Part shown: piece by piece, positions 16,767 through 38,314 of the stretch
How the letters are laid out: the number at the start of each line of letters is the position of its first letter
Position numbering within the stretch: position 1 is the first letter of the stretch
Virus record (IMG/VR): IMGVR_UViG_3300009537_000065
Span: 1-39,007 of that record
Strand: one strand, 5' to 3'
Length of the DNA: 39,007 nucleotides
Origin: a virus
Notes under the pieces: model-generated
Told to the model about the DNA's origin: nothing
Databases searched by the model: none
Seen by the model: only the letters and a program-made list of their open reading frames with translations
Position numbers and translations under genes: made by a program

Positions 16767-18089
16767 TTGTCTAGAGCTAAAGCTAATTACGAAAAAAGCA
16801 AGTTTGTTCTTATCAATGGAACTAAGTTGCCATTTACTGAGGCAATGAAACAGTGTGGGTTGAACCACTATATGCTCACTAGGAACATTATAATGGGTGT
16901 CGACGGGTTTGTGGGATTCCCTGATTCAGAGACATTTTGTAAAAATGAATTGGCTCGGCTCTATGAAAAATTCCCAACAAGTCCTAGCAGAGAAGAAATA
17001 GTTATTGCCAAAGCAAATCGCCGTTCCCTCAAGAGTCTAGCCAAAGAACATAAAATAACCTATAATACTTTGGGTTCTATATGCCTGTTGCAGGGCGTTG
17101 ACACGAAGTTCGACCAGGTTCCGCGCGAAATTCATACTAAACTGTCTAAGGAGTGTTTAGAAACACATTTATCCCTGAGACATTCTGCTGAGTTTATGGC
17201 AAAGAAATATAATGTTTCTCCGTCATTCATATTACAGAAACTTCACACCCACGGATTAAACGTGCAGCCTTCATTTACATCCGTAGGAGAACTTGAATTG
17301 AAATCCTTTATTGAATCGTTGGGGTTTAAACCGACTAAGCACAAAACTAAGAAGTATGAAATAGACGTTTTTGTCCCAGAACTTAATATTGGATTTGAAT
17401 ACAATGGTATATATTGGCATTCAAAGTTCCCCAGAAAGTATCACCAGGAAAAGTATCTTATGGCCAAAGAAGATGGGATAAGACTAATCCAAATTTGGGA
17501 CATAGATTGGATAAACAAGAGGACCCTGATAGAAAGAAAGGTGTCCCATGTTCTAGGGAAAAATGTCGGCGAGAGGATATTTGCCAGAAACACTTTTATT
17601 GATACGGTTTCTTCGACGGAGCTAAGATCCTTTTACGAGGAGAACCATATACAGGGGTACAAGTATGTCAAACACAACTTTGTTTTGAGAACAGATTCTG
17701 GTATCGTTGCTGCAATTTCCTTTCAGAGGAACAAGATAGAACGGTATGCCACATCATCTCCTGTGATAGGAGGGTTTTCGAAATTGCTAAAACATTCCGT
17801 TAATGCGCTGTCACTTGAGACCGTGGAAACTTTTGCGGACTTATTCTGGTCCGATCACCTAGCTAATCAATATGTTAAGATGGGATTCAAGCTAGTTTCT
17901 ATAACACCCCCGAATTACTTCTGGTGCAAGGGGGGAGAAAAGCATTCTAGAATCAAGTTCCAGAAGCACAAACTGAAATCTCTTCCCAACTATTGCGATG
18001 CAAAGACTGAGGAAATGATGATGTATGAGAACAAATACATCCGAGTCTTTGACGCAGGGAATGCTAAGTTTGTTTTAGACATTGTATAA
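16767..18089 (+). CDS. Free-standing Vsr-like (EDxHD) homing endonuclease
   Basis: 440 aa with a TTG start, chosen because GGAGAG lies 5 nt upstream; the next in-frame ATG is 26 codons on. The N-terminal 165 residues contain helix-turn-helix-like segments (LAKEHKITYNTL, FMAKKYNVSPSFIL). The nuclease core spans about 174-245: GELELKSFIESLGF (Glu), KYEIDVFVPELNIGFEYNG (Asp, Glu), YWHSK (His) and GIRLIQIWDIDW. This is the very-short-patch-repair-like fold of EDxHD homing endonucleases such as I-Bth0305I. The C-terminal 150 residues look like a second DNA-recognition domain. It interrupts the usual gene order downstream of gene 23, so it is probably a mobile, selfish gene. Its exact target is not visible. 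Confidence 0.8.
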   Translation: MSRAKANYEKSKFVLINGTKLPFTEAMKQCGLNHYMLTRNIIMGVDGFVGFPDSETFCKNELARLYEKFPTSPSREEIVIAKANRRSLKSLAKEHKITYNTLGSICLLQGVDTKFDQVPREIHTKLSKECLETHLSLRHSAEFMAKKYNVSPSFILQKLHTHGLNVQPSFTSVGELELKSFIESLGFKPTKHKTKKYEIDVFVPELNIGFEYNGIYWHSKFPRKYHQEKYLMAKEDGIRLIQIWDIDWINKRTLIERKVSHVLGKNVGERIFARNTFIDTVSSTELRSFYEENHIQGYKYVKHNFVLRTDSGIVAAISFQRNKIERYATSSPVIGGFSKLLKHSVNALSLETVETFADLFWSDHLANQYVKMGFKLVSITPPNYFWCKGGEKHSRIKFQKHKLKSLPNYCDAKTEEMMMYENKYIRVFDAGNAKFVLDIV

Positions 18090-23348: not shown

Positions 23349-24254
23349 ATGACAATCCGATATTCGGAAATTTTTTTTTCGTTTCAGGGGGAGGCTGAAC
23401 TCGCAGGTGTTCCTGCAGTTTGGTTGAGATTTTTTGGCTGTAACTTAAATTGTAATGGTTTTGGTCAAGCAAATCCGACAGACCCATCTACTTACATTCT
23501 GCCATACAAAGATGCAGATTTAAGTAATGTGCAGACACTTAAGGATTTGCCTGTTTGGAAATATGGTTGTGATTCGTCTTATTCTTGGTCTGCTAAGTAT
23601 AAGCATCTCGCGCAAACGTGTACGGTTGATGTTGTTGTTGACCGCTTAGTTGATGCTAACCGGTCTGAACACAACCCAGAAGGGAAGTTTATTCACCCAA
23701 AAACACACCAACCAATAATGCTATGTTTCACTGGTGGCGAACCGATGCTTCAGCAGCCAAACATTATTGCGATTTTGCAGGAGTTGCGGCGTCGGGGGAA
23801 TCTGCCGACTATTGTTACCGTAGAGACAAATGCAACCGTGCCACTTTCTGAGGCTCTTCGGGAGTTTATCAATACTGAATTCTTTGCGCGTGTTTCTGGT
23901 GGTGAGCGTTGGCACTGGGCTATGAGTCCCAAGTTGTTTAATGTTTCAGGTGAAGCTAATGCGATAAAGCCGGATATAATATATTCGTATGCTGTGACTA
24001 CGAGAAACACCTCGGTGTTGAAGTTTGTTTGTCGAGGTGGCAAGGCAGACTGGGATGAGCTTGATGGATCTATTGAAAAGATATTACAGAAGTTTGATAT
24101 TTTGAAGATTCCCCCAATCTGGATTATGCCCGTGGGTGCAACGCAAGAAGCACAATCAGATATCGCAGATTTGTGTATGGAGGCAATGCATCGCGGATAC
24201 AACGTAGCAACACGAAATCAATGTGCAGTTTTTGGAAATAAAATCGGATTCTAG
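23349..24254 (+). CDS. queE: QueE-like 7-carboxy-7-deazaguanine synthase (radical SAM)
   Basis: 301 aa. QueE converts 6-carboxy-tetrahydropterin to 7-carboxy-7-deazaguanine. It begins RYSEIFFSFQGEAELAGVPAVW (residues 4-25), the QueE signature. Cluster cysteines appear to be C31, C35 and C74 (GCNLNC ... YGCDSSYSW), that is C-x3-C-x38-C, with a 38-residue insertion in place of the short loop of bacterial enzymes. GGEP (about 128-131) binds SAM. VETNAT and WHWAMSPKLF continue the family pattern, and the C-terminus NQCAVFGNKIGF is typical. First gene of the deazaguanine operon; 9 nt before folE. Confidence 0.9.
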   Translation: MTIRYSEIFFSFQGEAELAGVPAVWLRFFGCNLNCNGFGQANPTDPSTYILPYKDADLSNVQTLKDLPVWKYGCDSSYSWSAKYKHLAQTCTVDVVVDRLVDANRSEHNPEGKFIHPKTHQPIMLCFTGGEPMLQQPNIIAILQELRRRGNLPTIVTVETNATVPLSEALREFINTEFFARVSGGERWHWAMSPKLFNVSGEANAIKPDIIYSYAVTTRNTSVLKFVCRGGKADWDELDGSIEKILQKFDILKIPPIWIMPVGATQEAQSDIADLCMEAMHRGYNVATRNQCAVFGNKIGF

Positions 24255-24263
24255 GAGAACATA

Positions 24264-24944
24264 ATGGACAAACTTGGGAAATATTCAAAGACGGACGTTG
24301 AGTTGGGAATGCGCGTTCACGCCTATCTCAAGGAAGTTGGTGTAGAGACTCCGACTGTTGCGGGCAGCCATCAGTCTATGGACGCTCGTATTAAGAAGAT
24401 TGAGAAGCATTTTCGAGCAATTATGGAAACTCTTTGCTTGGATATGGCAGACGACTCTCTTGCCGATAGCCCTCGTCGGGTGGCCAAGATGTATGTTCGT
24501 GAAATGTTTTGGGGGCTCGACCCGTCTGCCTTCCCAAAATGCACAACAATCGAAAACAAGATGGGATATGATGAAATGGTTCTTGAAAAGGACATCACGG
24601 TAATGTCTTGTTGCGAGCATCATTTTGTTACCATTGATGGTGTCGCGCACGTTGCATATATTCCTTCTACTAAGGTTATTGGGCTGTCGAAGCTCAATCG
24701 TGTGGTTGAATATTTCTCACGCAGACCTCAAGTTCAGGAGAGACTGACTGAGCAGGTCTATCACGCGCTGTCGTTGATTCTAGAGTCCCCGAATGTTGCG
24801 GTTGTCATTGATGCTTCGCATTTCTGTGTTAAGGCTCGCGGAGTGCAAGATCCGCAGTCAACAACGACTACCTCTAAGTTGGGTGGTGTATTCAAGACAG
24901 ACGCCGCGCTTCGTGCTGAGTTTATGCACCTTATCAAGAAGTAG
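24264..24944 (+). CDS. folE: GTP cyclohydrolase I
   Basis: 226 aa, close to E. coli FolE (222). It opens GTP to 7,8-dihydroneopterin triphosphate, the first step to 7-deazaguanines. Zinc ligands C117 and H120 in MSCCEHHFVTIDG, and C188 in SHFCVKARGV. HVAYIPSTKVIGLSKLNRVVE (residues 129-149) and QSTTTTSKLGG are the active-site signature segments. The N-terminal 45 residues are a helical extension. Ribosome site AGGAG at 24254-24258. Folate supply is an alternative use, but the neighbours queE, dpdA and queD point to DNA modification. Confidence 0.95.
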   Translation: MDKLGKYSKTDVELGMRVHAYLKEVGVETPTVAGSHQSMDARIKKIEKHFRAIMETLCLDMADDSLADSPRRVAKMYVREMFWGLDPSAFPKCTTIENKMGYDEMVLEKDITVMSCCEHHFVTIDGVAHVAYIPSTKVIGLSKLNRVVEYFSRRPQVQERLTEQVYHALSLILESPNVAVVIDASHFCVKARGVQDPQSTTTTSKLGGVFKTDAALRAEFMHLIKK

Positions 24945-31033: not shown

Positions 31034-31411
31034 ATGGACTGGGATTTTGGGTTTACTGTTATAGCTGCACCAGAATCACCCATAACTGACCGTCCTGTAG
31101 GAGAACCTGCAGGCACTCCCGGTGAAATATTGGAGTTGCGTGACGCACTTTTGATTAAGTTGGCAGATATCGAACGCAAACTTGAAGTGCTTGAAGTTGG
31201 AGGCGATAGCTTTCGTTTGATGGAAGAACACCGGTTGTTAATCGCAGAGCAGGCGAAGGAAAAGTTGCACAATTTGGAGGTATTGATTCTACCTCTTCTT
31301 TATAATTTGCAGAAAAATTCGGAGAAAGAATATATCCATTGGCCGAATAGGGAGAAGATTATTCAAGCACAGATTGAGAAAATACTTTTAATAACGAGGT
31401 CCTATGATTGA
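31034..31411 (+). CDS. Conserved small phage protein after gene 46 (125 aa)
   Basis: Strong ribosome site GAGGAGG 8 nt upstream. The N-terminus is flexible (GFTVIAAPESPITDRPVGEP). Residues 30-90 are helical and coiled-coil-like (EILELRDALLIKLADIERKLE). The C-terminal part has EVLILPLLYNLQKNSEKEYI then HWPNREKII, a pattern I recall in unnamed genes beside 46 in other T4-like phages. Function unknown. It overlaps the ClpP-like gene by 8 nt. Confidence 0.75.
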   Translation: MDWDFGFTVIAAPESPITDRPVGEPAGTPGEILELRDALLIKLADIERKLEVLEVGGDSFRLMEEHRLLIAEQAKEKLHNLEVLILPLLYNLQKNSEKEYIHWPNREKIIQAQIEKILLITRSYD

Positions 31412-32057
31412 ATCTAATGGAAGCGGCGACAATATGAATAATGCCTTTGTTGACAGACCGATTTCTAGGTTGCACAAATTTTATCTAGTTGGGGATATCA
31501 AGCCGGCGACTGAATATGTTGGGTGGTTTGAGCAGATTCGCAATAGCTCAGACACCGATGTTGTCATGCTACACATCAATTCATATGGTGGGGACCTTTT
31601 TACAGCAATTCAATTTCTTCGGGTTTTGTCTGAGACTAAGGCGACAGTAGTTGCATCTGTGGAAGGTGCTTGTATGTCTGCGGCGACTATTATCTTTATG
31701 GCGGCGAAACATTTTGAGATTAGTTCACATTCAATGTTTATGTTTCACAATTATTCAGGCGTGTCGTTGGGCAAGGGTGGAGAAATGTATGACAATGTTA
31801 TTCATCAGCGCAAGTGGAGCGAAAACTTGTGGAAGGATGTTTATGCAGGATTTCTAACAGATGTCGAAATTACCGCAATGTTGCACAATAAGGACATTTG
31901 GATGACCGGCGAAGAAGTCACTAAGAGGTTGGTTGAAAAGCTGGGTCGTGACGTTGGCGTCCCAACACCTGCTCCAGAGGGACTGGAGATTCCAGTTAAG
32001 CGCAAGCCTAAGGCTATGGTGGCCAAGACAACGGTTAAGACCAAGAAGAGGAAGTAA
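31404..32057 (+). CDS. ClpP-like serine protease
   Basis: 217 aa, near the size of ClpP. Crotonase-like fold with FYLVGDI (strand), LHINSYGGDLFTAIQFL (about 57-73), catalytic Ser92 in VEGACMSAATIIFMAA, His115 in SMFMFHNYSG and Asp164 in NKDIWMTGEEV as the likely third residue. The Ser-His spacing is 23, close to ClpP (25). The last 30 residues are a Lys-rich tail (KRKPKAMVAKTTVKTKKRK), unusual for ClpP. No Clp ATPase partner is in the window. Phage ClpP proteins may act on host or phage proteins with the host chaperone; here this is inference. Confidence 0.85.
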   Translation: MIESNGSGDNMNNAFVDRPISRLHKFYLVGDIKPATEYVGWFEQIRNSSDTDVVMLHINSYGGDLFTAIQFLRVLSETKATVVASVEGACMSAATIIFMAAKHFEISSHSMFMFHNYSGVSLGKGGEMYDNVIHQRKWSENLWKDVYAGFLTDVEITAMLHNKDIWMTGEEVTKRLVEKLGRDVGVPTPAPEGLEIPVKRKPKAMVAKTTVKTKKRK

Positions 32058-32671: not shown

Positions 32672-32731
32672 CCCCTTTAAAATCAACAACTTAGAGTTCC
32701 ATAAAAAACCCTATTTTCTTTGGACTGGGGC

Positions 32732-32760
32732 TTGACAAATGCGGCACTTATGAGTAGATT
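32732..32760 (+). promoter_or_regulatory. Host-type sigma70 promoter before the secreted-protein/VWA operon
   Basis: TTGACA (32732-32737), 17-nt spacer, TAGATT (32755-32760). Identical hexamers and spacing to the uvsY promoter. The GGGGCTTGACAA context matches the 35465 promoter (AGGGCTTGACAA), and AATCAACAACTTA at 32681-32693 resembles a site upstream of that one. Confidence 0.75.
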
Positions 32761-32789: not shown

Positions 32790-33113
32790 ATGAAATTGAT
32801 AGGAGCAGTCGTTGGGTTGCTGATGTTCGCGGGAGTCGCGGACGCACAATCTACGAAAGTTATCAAGGAGACGGTTGAGCGAGTAATTATAGGAACTACG
32901 CTCAATCAAGCAAAGTATCAGATTCAGTCGGATCTTTGGAGTATCGCGTACAAGACTATTGATGCACCGTTTCGCGATAACAACAATCGGTTGCCGAATA
33001 TTTCAATTAATCGAATTCCGCCCCCGAAGCAGATACCAAGCTCAACTATGAACTATGCAAAAATTGACAGCATTTACGCGGCAAAGGCAGATACAGCCAA
33101 AATTCGCAACTAA
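32790..33113 (+). CDS. Small exported protein with signal peptide (107 aa)
   Basis: ATG 32790 is preferred over ATG 32769 because GGAGGA lies 3 nt before it and the resulting N-terminus is a complete signal peptide: MKLIG, hydrophobic core AVVGLLMFAGV, then ADA|QS as a signal peptidase I site (after residue 19). The mature part of about 88 residues is polar, with a predicted helical start (STKVIKETVERVI) and a proline-rich IPPPKQIPSS segment; it has no cysteines. Not recognised. In a Gram-negative host it would go to the periplasm. First gene after a strong early promoter, so probably made early; superinfection exclusion or envelope modification is possible but unproven. Confidence 0.75.
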   Translation: MKLIGAVVGLLMFAGVADAQSTKVIKETVERVIIGTTLNQAKYQIQSDLWSIAYKTIDAPFRDNNNRLPNISINRIPPPKQIPSSTMNYAKIDSIYAAKADTAKIRN

Positions 33114-33131
33114 CCGAGGAATTACTTTATT

Positions 33132-35396
33132 ATGAGCAAGACTGTGAACGTAGCCGATATCAATACGCAAAAGCATACCTTGGGTAAGCTACTTGCGACA
33201 GAGGACATTCGGGTCGAACACAAGAAAGTGCCTGGCCCCTGTTTCGATGTTGTTAGTCGGGTTCTCACGCTCCCAACGTGGAAGGATATGGGGGCTGACC
33301 TCTATGACCTTATGATTGGACACGAAGTCGGGCACGCCCTTTACACACCGACTGAAGGTTGGGAGAGCGTGGTCAAGGAGCGAGGTCGCGGCTACAAGGG
33401 CTTTCTCAACATCGTTGAGGATGTGCGGATTGAGCGCAAGATGAAGCGCCGATACCCCGGACTTCGCAAGCCGATGTACGAGGGGTACACCATTCTCCTC
33501 GAACGAAATTTCTTCGGCACGCCTATCGCTGAAATGTCTAGGCTCCCCTTTATGGACAGGCTCAACGTGTACTTCAAGTTGGGTGCAAGGTCTGGTGTCA
33601 AATTCTCCGATAAGGAGCTCACCTACATCAATCGTTTGGAGGTGATTGAAACCTGGAACGAGGTTATGGCACTCACCGAGGAGCTTTGGGATTTCTGTGC
33701 CGAAGAGCGTGAGAAGATGCAAGAGGAGCAGGATGCTCAGGATTCGGCTGATGGTGAACCGAGGTGGGGTGATCCGGGCGACGGTGAGGCCGGAGAACCG
33801 GAGGAAAACGAAATGGGAGAAATGGATCCCGATTCTAAGCCCAATCGACGCCCCGACACACGGCCTAAGCCGTCGGAAGAGAAGACCGAGGAATCGGAGA
33901 AGCAATCGGAAGAGAAGACCGAGGAATCGGAGACGCAAGATGATGATGTTTCGGATTTGCTGGATGAGTGGCTAAACAAGAAAGAAAATTATTCAATCAC
34001 TCAGGAAAACTTTGAGCATATGGCGGGTAGCTTGATTGACCCAGATTCGTTGCCAGATTTCTACTGCAAGTGGCCCAAATTGAAGATTGCCGATTGGGTT
34101 ATCCCGGCTAAGGTCACTCACGACATTATGGCGGCTGAGTTTACTCAGAACCAGAGAGATTCGCGAGATTCGACATATGCTTCTTTTATGGCAACCAACA
34201 AGAAGTACATTGAGTGTATGGTTAAGGAATTTGAACTTAAGCGAAATGCTAAGCAGTTTGCTAAGGCTAAGGTCAGCAAGACAGGTGACCTCGATGCTAG
34301 CAAGGTGTGGAAGTATCGACTGTCAGACGACTTGTTCCTTCAGAGTACGGTTGTGCCAAATGGGAAAAATCACGGTATGATAATGCTCGTCGATTTCTCA
34401 TCCAGTATGACAGATTCGATGAAGGGAACGGTCGAGCAAATTGTTTCAATGTCAATGTTCTGTCGTAAGGTCAACATCCCCTTCGAGGTGTATGGGTTCA
34501 TTGACAACGACGGCTGGGAGAGGGAGTTGGGGGCGTCTGGTTCAAAGGTAAGATATACCAACTGGAGGTTACGCAACGACCAAACTCCCAGTGCGATACA
34601 GATTGAGTATGCGCAGGTTCGGTTGAAGCAGTTGCTTCACTCCGGTATGCGAGCGGCGGAGTTCAAGAAGTCGGTTGGGAATCTCTTGGTTCTGGCTGCA
34701 AGGTATGGGTACCGCTGGTATTACAATTCACCTGGAGTTCTTCCCACGTCAATGCAACTGGGCGGAACCCCGCTGAACGAGGCCATTCTCATACTTCGTG
34801 CGGTTGCTGATAATTTCAAGAAGGCTACTAAGGTTGAAGTCCTCAACACTATCATTCTTACTGATGGTGAAGCATCTAGTGGTATTAGTGCGCAGGATTC
34901 GTCTGGGAATACTCCAAGGTATAACGAAAACATTGTGGTTGAGGACAGCGTAACTAGGAAGAGCGTGAAGATACGGCCGGCTCGAAATTATAGCCGAGGG
35001 TCTAGCGATAGTACCAAGGGGTTGCTGGCTCTCTATGCCCAGATGACAGGTTCGCGGGTGTTTGGGTTCTACTTGGTAATGGGAAACAATCCGAAAAAGA
35101 TTATTTCTTCGATAGTTTCGGACTACTATCACCCAGACCCTAACTTTGATTCGAGGTATTCGGCTGAGTTTAGCAAGCATCAGTTCTACACCCACTCGAT
35201 GGTGGGGTATGATATGTTCTACTTTGTTCAGGGAAATAAGCTGGAAATTGAAGACCTGACCATGGATACTGTTCTCAGCAAGAAGCCGGCTAAGACTACA
35301 AATAAGGCGACCCTGCTGAGGGCTTTCAAGACGCTTCAAACGTCTAAAAAGGTGTCTAGGGTATTCGTTAATCGCTTTATTGCGAATATCAGCTAA
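33132..35396 (+). CDS. HExxH metallopeptidase-like + VWA (CobT-like) protein
   Basis: 754 aa. The N-terminal region has MIGHEVGHALYTP (H64, E65, H68), followed by NIVEDVRIERKMKRRYPG (93-110), in the place where a third zinc ligand is expected. Residues about 195-285 form an acidic, low-complexity linker with an 11-residue repeat. The C-terminal region is a von Willebrand A domain with MIDAS motif DFSSSM (about 420-425) and LTDGEAS later. This matches CobT-like VWA proteins that pair with MoxR/CobS AAA+ ATPases, and such an ATPase is the next gene. Cobalamin synthesis is unlikely, as no other genes for it are here. I infer a chaperone or protease machine remodelling a host or phage complex. 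Confidence 0.82.
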   Translation: MSKTVNVADINTQKHTLGKLLATEDIRVEHKKVPGPCFDVVSRVLTLPTWKDMGADLYDLMIGHEVGHALYTPTEGWESVVKERGRGYKGFLNIVEDVRIERKMKRRYPGLRKPMYEGYTILLERNFFGTPIAEMSRLPFMDRLNVYFKLGARSGVKFSDKELTYINRLEVIETWNEVMALTEELWDFCAEEREKMQEEQDAQDSADGEPRWGDPGDGEAGEPEENEMGEMDPDSKPNRRPDTRPKPSEEKTEESEKQSEEKTEESETQDDDVSDLLDEWLNKKENYSITQENFEHMAGSLIDPDSLPDFYCKWPKLKIADWVIPAKVTHDIMAAEFTQNQRDSRDSTYASFMATNKKYIECMVKEFELKRNAKQFAKAKVSKTGDLDASKVWKYRLSDDLFLQSTVVPNGKNHGMIMLVDFSSSMTDSMKGTVEQIVSMSMFCRKVNIPFEVYGFIDNDGWERELGASGSKVRYTNWRLRNDQTPSAIQIEYAQVRLKQLLHSGMRAAEFKKSVGNLLVLAARYGYRWYYNSPGVLPTSMQLGGTPLNEAILILRAVADNFKKATKVEVLNTIILTDGEASSGISAQDSSGNTPRYNENIVVEDSVTRKSVKIRPARNYSRGSSDSTKGLLALYAQMTGSRVFGFYLVMGNNPKKIISSIVSDYYHPDPNFDSRYSAEFSKHQFYTHSMVGYDMFYFVQGNKLEIEDLTMDTVLSKKPAKTTNKATLLRAFKTLQTSKKVSRVFVNRFIANIS
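33873..33933 (+). repeat. 28-bp direct repeat in the VWA-gene linker
   Basis: Identical 28-nt units at 33873-33900 and 33906-33933, period 33 nt, encode SEEKTEESE twice. It keeps the frame, so copy number can vary in 11-residue steps in the acidic linker. Confidence 0.85.
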
Positions 35397-35406
35397 ATCC
35401 TTCGGC

Positions 35407-35439
35407 CCTGTAAGTCATTGGAAATCAACGACTTACAGG
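35407..35439 (+). terminator. Strong hairpin after the VWA gene
   Basis: CCTGTAAGTC (35407-35416) pairs perfectly with GACTTACAGG (35430-35439), extended by an A/C mismatch and TTG/CAA pairs around a GAAAT loop. It begins 11 nt after the stop. No U-run follows, so it may be a weak terminator, an RNA processing site or an operator for the promoter 26 nt downstream. Confidence 0.5.
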
Positions 35440-35464
35440 CGCCCGGGGAGGGTGAAAATAGGGC

Positions 35465-35493
35465 TTGACAACCTGGCTGCAGGTGACTATATT
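35465..35493 (+). promoter_or_regulatory. Host-type sigma70 promoter before the MoxR-like ATPase
   Basis: TTGACA (35465-35470), 17-nt spacer, TATATT (35488-35493), 49 nt before the ATPase start. The best -35/-10 pair in the window, giving the ATPase its own early expression in addition to read-through. Confidence 0.8.
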
Positions 35494-35541
35494 TAAGAAG
35501 TAACGTGAGAAGTCAAACAACACTATGAGGAACCAAACATT

Positions 35542-36717
35542 ATGAATCAGGAACGGTCAGCGTTGCTGGAAGCACTTTCTGGAAAGACGGTCGTGAACCG
35601 CAAGGAAGTTCTCTCGGTATCGAATTCGTTGGGTCTCGCATTCCCTGCGTGGCTTCTGAACAACCCGAAGTACCGAGTCAGCCGAGGTGTGGTTGATATC
35701 AGTCGGGTTGGGGCCAAGGGCTCCCCGGCAAAACAGGTCTCAGTTCCGGAGACACAGGTGGAGATGGTAGTTCCTTCGTCTCAGGTTATGCTTCGCCAGC
35801 CGAAACTGATGACCGAAGTAAACCAGAGTCTTGTTCCTAGGAAGGATGGGACTTATGTTCCCTTCGGATTCCACAAGGATCTTGAACGGATTATCGGTTC
35901 CAATTCTTTCTACCCCGTCTTTATCGCAGGTCTGTCTGGAAACGGAAAGACTACGATGGTCGAGCAGGTTTGTTCTAAGCTCGGTCGCGAGGCGATTCGC
36001 GTCAACATCACGATTGAGACGGACGAGGACGATTTGATTGGAGGTAATACTCTGGTCGATGGGAACGTGGTATACCGCGAGGGCCCAGTAATTCTTGCAA
36101 TGCGTCGAGGCGCAGTCCTGATTCTCGACGAGTGTGACCGAGGAAGCAATAAGCTAATGTGCTTGCAGGGTGTTCTTGAAGGTAAGCCATACTTCAATAA
36201 GAAGACAGGCGAGACGGTTGAGGCTGTGTCTGGATTCAACATCATTGCAACTGCCAACACTAAGGGTCGCGGGTCCGATGACGGAAAGTATATGTCAGCA
36301 CAGATTCTGGACGATGCGTTCCTTGAGAGGTTCGCAGTCACAGTTGAGCAGGAGTTCCCGAGCAATCGGGTGGAAAAGAAAATCATCCTTAAGAAGATGG
36401 CGAGGGTGGATTGCATGGATGAAGAGTTTGCAGAGAATCTGGTGCAATGGGCGGAAATCATTCGCAAGACATTCCGCGAAGGTGCGATTGAGGAGCTTAT
36501 CTCAACGCGCCGGCTGGAGCACATTGTTAACGCATTCGCGATGTTTGGTGAGCGGATGAAGGCAATCAATCTCTGCATCAACAGGTTCGACAGCGAGACC
36601 AAGCTCTCATTCTTGGACTTGTATTCAAAGATTGATGCTAAGGTCTCTCTCCCGACAGCAGACGCTTCGGATGAGATTGGGGATGTGGACTCTAACGATA
36701 AGGATTTGTCCTTCTAA
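35542..36717 (+). CDS. MoxR/CobS-type AAA+ ATPase
   Basis: 391 aa; ribosome site GAGG 12 nt upstream. Residues 1-110 are an N-terminal domain with a helical start (QERSALLEALSGKTVVNRKEV). The AAA+ core has Walker A AGLSGNGKTTM (about 129-139), Walker B AVLILDECDR (about 191-200), sensor 1 FNIIATANT (about 233-241) and an arginine-finger-like FLERFAV. A helical lid follows (ISTRRLEHIVNAFAMFG). CobS-type ATPases in T4-like phages pair with VWA proteins, here the previous gene. Probable role: ATP-driven remodelling with the VWA protein as adaptor. Its stop overlaps the phosphoesterase ATG. Confidence 0.88.
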   Translation: MNQERSALLEALSGKTVVNRKEVLSVSNSLGLAFPAWLLNNPKYRVSRGVVDISRVGAKGSPAKQVSVPETQVEMVVPSSQVMLRQPKLMTEVNQSLVPRKDGTYVPFGFHKDLERIIGSNSFYPVFIAGLSGNGKTTMVEQVCSKLGREAIRVNITIETDEDDLIGGNTLVDGNVVYREGPVILAMRRGAVLILDECDRGSNKLMCLQGVLEGKPYFNKKTGETVEAVSGFNIIATANTKGRGSDDGKYMSAQILDDAFLERFAVTVEQEFPSNRVEKKIILKKMARVDCMDEEFAENLVQWAEIIRKTFREGAIEELISTRRLEHIVNAFAMFGERMKAINLCINRFDSETKLSFLDLYSKIDAKVSLPTADASDEIGDVDSNDKDLSF

Positions 36718-37926: not shown

Positions 37927-37963
37927 GAGCATTAAGCGGGACGAACGTGGCAATGTCATCTAC
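37916..37963 (+). repeat. Start of copy 1, nearly identical to 38912-38959
   Basis: 48 nt including the start codon and first 15 codons; one mismatch against 38912-38959. Indicates recent duplication of the repeat gene start. Confidence 0.9.
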
Positions 37964-38314
37964 CGCCGCGACAGCGACGGTTTCGAGTACTGGCGCGAGT
38001 ACGACGAGAATGGCAACCGTACCCACCACCGCGACAACGAGGGTTGCGAGTACTGGTACGAGTACGACGAGAACAACAACATCACCCACTACCGCGACAG
38101 CGGGGGTTACGAGGAGTGGAGCGAGTACGACGAGAACGGCGCCTGTACCCACTACCGCAGCAGCGCGGGCTACGAGTACTGGAGCGAGTACGACGAGAAC
38201 GGAGCTTGGGTCTACTACCGCGACAACGGGGGTCGCGAATGGGGAACACCGAGGAAGGGGAAGGCGATGAGTGACTACGAAGAACTCACAGACGAGGAGG
38301 ACTACGGTGAGTGA
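37919..38314 (+). CDS. YD/RHS-like repeat protein, copy 1 (131 aa)
   Basis: Begins MSESIKRDERGNVIYRRDS. Then four 21-residue units of the form G(F/Y/C)E(Y/E)W.EYDEN(G/N)...(H/Y)YR(D/S).(G/A/E), and an end GREWGTPRKGK with an acidic tail. The repeats resemble RHS/YD beta-hairpin repeats but are too few for a shell; a short beta-solenoid or binding surface is likely. Codons are strongly GAC/GAG/TAC/CGC, far GC-richer than the rest of the window, and antisense frames stay open as a by-product. Function unknown. Confidence 0.72.
   Translation: MSESIKRDERGNVIYRRDSDGFEYWREYDENGNRTHHRDNEGCEYWYEYDENNNITHYRDSGGYEEWSEYDENGACTHYRSSAGYEYWSEYDENGAWVYYRDNGGREWGTPRKGKAMSDYEELTDEEDYGE

Follow-up and report, generated by a model that had tools for sequence, protein, structure and literature searches.

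Ring ATPases that work with a VWA/MIDAS domain are known from NorQ-NorD, CbbQ-CbbO and Rea1/Midasin, which gave the best fold matches to the gene pair described here. In Rea1, the ring and the MIDAS lie within a single chain; NorQ-linked VWA proteins, unlike the 754-aa protein of our pair, lack an HExxH motif. Within phages, the closest described systems are those of the T4-like cyanophages S-TIM4, S-PM2 and Syn9, which share the gene order uvsW, gp55, gp47, gp46, peptidase, cobS, gp45, gp44. CobS has been reported in more than 90% of T4-like cyanophages (PMC10665884), and marine virus surveys list it among the auxiliary metabolic genes for vitamin B12. The initial annotation held the phage role of such a pair to be unknown, but two published proposals exist and they conflict: Liu 2021 named the cyanophage genes CobST and considered "peptidase" a misannotation (PMC8651126), whereas Iyer 2021 described jumbo phages with MoxR and a vWA domain fused to an N-terminal metallopeptidase and proposed a role in virion assembly (PMC7824862). 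Going by that paper's description, the group 2.2 jumbo phages (for example ASV44728/ASV44729) resemble our locus in both architecture and pairing, although the promoters here look early. We found no published experiment on any family member in the literature.

The stretch of DNA that we analyzed (the window) comes from a virus record of 39,007 bases and is a fragment of a T4-like myovirus, in which we identified the T4-like terminase, portal, sheath, tube, scaffold, UvsW-type helicase, gp47 and gp46 families (Table 1). Judged by its sequence matches, the pair is the already known cyanophage "peptidase" (phrog_459) and "cobS" (phrog_249) and is not new; what we add is a conservation test, a promoter test and a contrast with cellular CobT. 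As in the relatives, gp47 and gp46 lie upstream and the cobS-type gene is adjacent to the 754-aa gene, and the pair shares its full-length family and strand with the T4-like cyanophage pair, yet identity to the latter is below 60% throughout. In addition, a small ORF and genes for a ClpP-like peptidase, a HAD-type protein and a secreted-type protein separate gp46 from the pair in the window, whereas in S-TIM4, S-PM2 and Syn9 the peptidase directly follows gp46; downstream, the window has a phosphoesterase where these three phages have gp45.

Table 1. Features of the locus, with positions in the window.
Feature	Position	Strand	Evidence
ClpP-like serine peptidase	31404..32057	+	Clp protease 8.5e-9, phrog_1827 2.6e-56
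Sigma-70-like promoter TTGACA-17-TAGATT	32732..32760	+	consensus scan; upstream of secreted ORF and 754-aa gene
107-aa ORF, signal-peptide-like start (MKLIGAVVGLLMFAGVADA)	32790..33113	+	GGAGG ahead of start; no homologue in relatives
754-aa HExxH-VWA protein, cyanophage "peptidase" family	33132..35396	+	phrog_459, AlphaFold pLDDT 77.6
HEVGH putative zinc-site motif, residues 64-68	33321..33335	+	invariance of H64, E65, H68
E96-D97 of NxxEDxRIE; E96 = candidate third zinc ligand	33417..33422	+	invariant, 81/81 aligned sequences
Acidic disordered linker, about residues 207-290	33750..34001	+	36% D/E; pLDDT <50 at 208-270
MIDAS DFSSS, residues 421-425, with T546 and D578	34392..34406	+	invariant; VWA fold matches
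Perfect 10-bp inverted repeat CCTGTAAGTC...GACTTACAGG	35407..35439	+	directly after 754-aa gene; read from sequence
Sigma-70-like promoter TTGACA-17-TATATT	35465..35493	+	consensus scan; upstream of ATPase gene
391-aa MoxR/CobS-type AAA+ ATPase, cyanophage cobS	35542..36717	+	phrog_249 7e-109; AAA_5 1.9e-15; CbbQ/NorQ fold

Using peptide patterns, we collected 80 viral relatives of the 754-aa protein with 28-41% identity. Because these patterns exclude the HExxH stretch, the conservation of the putative ligands could be tested without circularity. The ATPase gene lies on the same strand in all 72 of the 80 viral-contig loci where it was found (71 downstream, 1 upstream), and in the other 8 the first gene lies no more than 308 bases from the end of the sequence. 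Thus the two genes were not found apart within the family, a separation that would have spoken against the initial annotation; outside the family, more distant phage AAA+ relatives also exist that are paired with other VWA proteins or have no VWA partner. A tblastn search recovered 463 phage records with a relative of the 754-aa protein. By name, 450 of these fall into three groups, Synechococcus (365), Cyanophage (61) and Prochlorococcus (24), for which the ATPase gave the same counts. Together with the full-length match to phrog_459 (residues 12-754 against 5-736 of 736, 5e-176), this shows that the finding is not due to chance. Matches on genome contigs, which might have represented cellular members, came mostly from metagenome bins and had a phage-type ATPase where checked, and are therefore probably phage or prophage contigs. 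DUF2201_N (PF13203) was considered as a cellular parent, but one member matched weakly (0.13) and a profile search of a few cellular examples came back empty; no meaningful PADLOC match to known defence systems was obtained.

All parts that the initial annotation had read into the 754-aa ORF, namely a zinc-peptidase-like motif, an acidic linker and a VWA domain with intact MIDAS, are present. In the AlphaFold model (mean pLDDT 77.6), a confidently predicted N-terminal domain is followed by an acidic linker, which is disordered and less rich in D/E than the family median of 43%, and by a VWA domain in which the MIDAS comprises D421-x-S423-x-S425, T546 and D578. PDB matches of the model are the VWA domains of NorD in NorQ complexes and MDN1-MIDAS; a PDB sequence search with the protein gave acidic low-complexity matches only. 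The modelled N-terminal domain runs from strands to the HExxH helix and the ED helix. The PDB matches listed for the model do not include a zincin, which counts against a peptidase; we therefore base the zincin assignment on the motif, its conservation and the secondary structure.

All 80 aligned sequences that cover the site have H64, E65 and H68, and N93, E96, D97 and R99 (within NIVEDVRIE, residues 93-101) and the five MIDAS residues are likewise invariant wherever aligned. The protein thus combines a conserved HExxH with a conserved downstream glutamate as putative ligand (H64, E65, H68 and E96), as in gluzincins, and the loss of zinc ligands that would have spoken against the initial annotation was not seen in any of the 80 viral relatives covering them. 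Both the HExxH and the ED motif are kept in Syn9, S-PM2, S-TIM4 and P-SSM2, as well as in Pelagibacter phage HTVC008M, where the ATPase gene again lies beside the 754-aa homologue. CobT-like proteins of Gordonia phages (Lidong, Woes group) also have HExxH, ED-R, a VWA domain and a neighbouring AAA+ gene, but they are distant in sequence, the AAA+ gene comes first and the phages are not T4-like; HExxH and ED-R are kept in 11 out of 11 of these and in the Ochrobactrum OC protein. The two motifs are not kept in hairong-type phage CobT proteins, and no relatives came up when we scanned with the CobT proteins of Ochrobactrum OC and ICP2. Based on the sequence, we consider the "peptidase" label of the phrog_459-type protein justified at the level of active-site residues and proteolysis by the pair plausible. 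The host takeover that the initial annotation also suggested gained no direct support.

The partner gene encodes a complete AAA+ protein with Walker A (residues 130-136), Walker B (D196-E197), N239, R263 and R323/R324, all of which are invariant in the relatives and correspond to the MoxR-type Walker motifs, sensor 1, arginine finger and sensor 2. It passes Pfam AAA_5 (57.5 vs 22) and narrowly misses the gathering score of AAA_3 (MoxR; 25 bits vs 27). The sequence profile matches Midasin and CobS, and the model matches the folds of CbbQ, NorQ and Rea1, all ring remodellers. The annotation of phrog_249 itself is "porphyrin biosynthesis" (cobS).

The initial annotation also placed an extra promoter before the ATPase gene and called the machine early, and our promoter analysis agrees with both. 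The candidate promoter of the ATPase gene matches 11 of 12 consensus positions and sits in the 145-base gap between the two genes. Among relatives, the 150 bases upstream of the first gene contain a sigma-70-type site in 38 of 74 cases (3.3% of random stretches) and those ahead of the ATPase gene in 29 of 72 (3.8% of random stretches), while the late motif was seen in 4 of 74 and 0 of 72, respectively, vs about 2% at random. In the virion half of the window, ATAAATA, which forms the core of the late promoter published for cyanophages (NATAAATA), occurs at seven sites that lie between genes or at gene ends, some directly before sheath, scaffold and capsid-position genes; neither the core nor the full promoter was present near the pair. 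Middle cyanophage genes may have both promoter types, a point against assigning the pair to an early machine on this basis, and the published expression studies that we consulted yielded no transcript timing for cobS. The promoter data support early or middle expression of the pair, as predicted from promoters and gene order.

Regarding the neighbourhood, the initial annotation set the machine next to a secreted protein. An ORF with a signal-peptide-like start does begin at position 32790, but none of the 80 related loci has a homologue, so that it is probably an incidental neighbour and not part of the machine. In 10 loci of close relatives, the ClpP-like gene lies upstream of the pair, and its positions for Ser, His and Asp are conserved. 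This is a lead toward a proteolytic role and a functional link is possible, although the position could be coincidental.

With the CobS/CobT of Alphaproteobacteria, the pair shares an AAA+ ring, a VWA protein with acidic linker and weak collinear profile similarity. Unlike the phage protein, however, cellular CobT lacks HExxH (0 out of 31 sequences), and the phage pair misses both family cut-offs: the ATPase scores 73 bits against the 558.55 required for CobS (TIGR01650), and up to E = 1 the 754-aa protein has no NCBIfam match to CobT (TIGR01651). Profile comparison with cellular CobT gave two weak collinear matches, in the N-terminal region (P = 1.4e-4) and the VWA region (P = 6e-4). As controls, NorQ-linked VWA proteins, which we had considered as whole-protein relatives, gave no match (P = 0.82), whereas reversed CobT reached 1.2e-3; the N-terminal score exceeded all 150 column shuffles and was reached by 1 of 150 block shuffles. 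Given these mixed controls, common descent of the 754-aa protein with cellular CobT is likely from the profiles but not proven.

We propose, with a probability of about 50%, that the two genes encode an ATP-driven machine for protein remodelling, probably with a proteolytic activity of its own, which is made in early or mid-infection. The 391-aa protein would form a MoxR/CobS-type AAA+ ring onto which the VWA-MIDAS domain of the 754-aa protein would dock, while the flexible acidic linker would keep the N-terminal zincin-like domain close to the ring. ATP hydrolysis would then pull or loosen a target, and the zinc site would cut it. We infer complex formation, zinc binding, cleavage and the order of events, as well as the target, which would be a protein of the host or the phage that belongs to the phase before assembly. 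The remodelling part of this proposal is supported by the fold matches of both proteins, and the proteolytic part by the invariant catalytic-type E65 and zinc-site residues in the 80 relatives and by the ClpP-like peptidase of close relatives. Early action is supported by the position beside gp46/gp47 and, in relatives, gp45/gp44, and the proposal as a whole by the same-strand adjacency in every testable locus, the early-type promoters, the near-absent late motif and the presence of ATAAATA before virion genes.

We weighed two published alternatives. Were the pair a viral cobaltochelatase helper, CobS and CobT would join host CobN, insert cobalt and raise vitamin B12 for nucleotide synthesis (PMC8651126). 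The ATPase is indeed closest to CobS among single-ring solved families (PDB 9ujv, 2e-34), the weak CobT profile matches are collinear, and a predicted-structure search connects the full-length 754-aa protein with phage proteins whose names read CobT-like or cobalamin biosynthesis protein. Yet the CobS score falls far under the curated cut-off, a chelatase role offers no reason for an HExxH that phage members keep without exception and cellular CobT lacks, and cobN is absent from the 39-kb fragment. Moreover, HTVC008M has the pair although its Pelagibacter host is thought to scavenge B12 and not to make it, and we regard this explanation as improbable. Somewhat better placed, but still unlikely, is a late virion-assembly chaperone with a peptidase that processes structural proteins, as proposed for the same architecture in jumbo phages by analogy with Acidianus two-tailed virus (PMC7824862). 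Some phage peptidases are known to process virions, and a VWA/MoxR pair is reported to have a role in tail development of the Acidianus virus. The early-type promoters and the scarcity of the late motif at the pair and in relatives argue against it, as does a location among recombination and replication genes, outside the virion block; CobS and peptidase are also unnamed among the listed virion proteins of cyanophage S-SZBM1, although a chaperone does not have to be a virion component.

The zinc site could also be structural or regulatory, in which case the machine would just unfold or loosen a complex, by analogy with RavA-ViaA, NorQD and CbbQO. Cellular CobT, NorQ-linked VWA proteins and hairong-type phage CobT have no HExxH and nevertheless work or persist, which means that this type of machine does not need the motif and weighs against built-in proteolysis. 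On the other hand, E65 is required for catalysis and not for holding zinc and is nevertheless invariant, and the motifs persist in all of the Gordonia phage relatives, so that we give a pure remodeller the smallest share. Overall, early-type promoters and conservation make a B12 enzyme or a late chaperone of the virion less likely than a protease or remodeller that runs on ATP early in infection. A further step, which we put forward tentatively and hold to be doubtful, is that cyanophage "cobS" is not a B12 gene but the motor of an early phage metalloprotease (a MoxR ring, a zincin-VWA adaptor and sometimes a ClpP-like neighbour), with cellular CobT as a relative whose peptidase site is dead. 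If the pair is an early protease-chaperone, the ecological reading of CobS in terms of B12 would be wrong, and very abundant phages would carry a proteolytic machine.

The two predicted sigma-70-like promoters of the peptidase-cobS region are each preceded by a copy of the 14-mer AAATCAACRACTTA. Its distance to the downstream GGGCTTGACA is 48 bases at the first promoter and 39 at the second, and no third copy was found elsewhere within the window. The copy before the ATPase gene is overlapped by a perfect 10-bp inverted repeat. AAATCAACRACTTA is a possible shared control element of both promoters.

Features of the window and their coordinates
Feature	Position	Remark
Late-type ATAAATA motif	16730	upstream of homing endonuclease gene
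Homing endonuclease gene	16767-18089	behind the capsid-position gene
QueE-like radical SAM protein gene, then GTP cyclohydrolase I gene	23349-24944	
ClpP-like serine peptidase gene	31404-32057	between gp46 and the peptidase-cobS pair
AAATCAACRACTTA	32680-32693	
Inverted repeat	35407-35439	
AAATCAACRACTTA	35422-35435	
63-base tandem repeats	37962-38233	within an Rhs-repeat-like ORF; two more ORFs of similar type toward the right end

The catalytic positions of the ClpP-like peptidase are kept in all 11 sequences compared, and in 10 close relatives its gene likewise lies upstream of the pair. Elsewhere, the QueE-like and GTP cyclohydrolase I genes suggest a 7-deazaguanine-type pathway, which perhaps serves DNA modification.

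Both the HExxH zinc-site motif and the downstream ED-R motif are retained by every readable CobT-like protein of the Gordonia phage loci L178-L189 (11/11), indicating that peptidase-type CobT occurs beyond T4-like phages.
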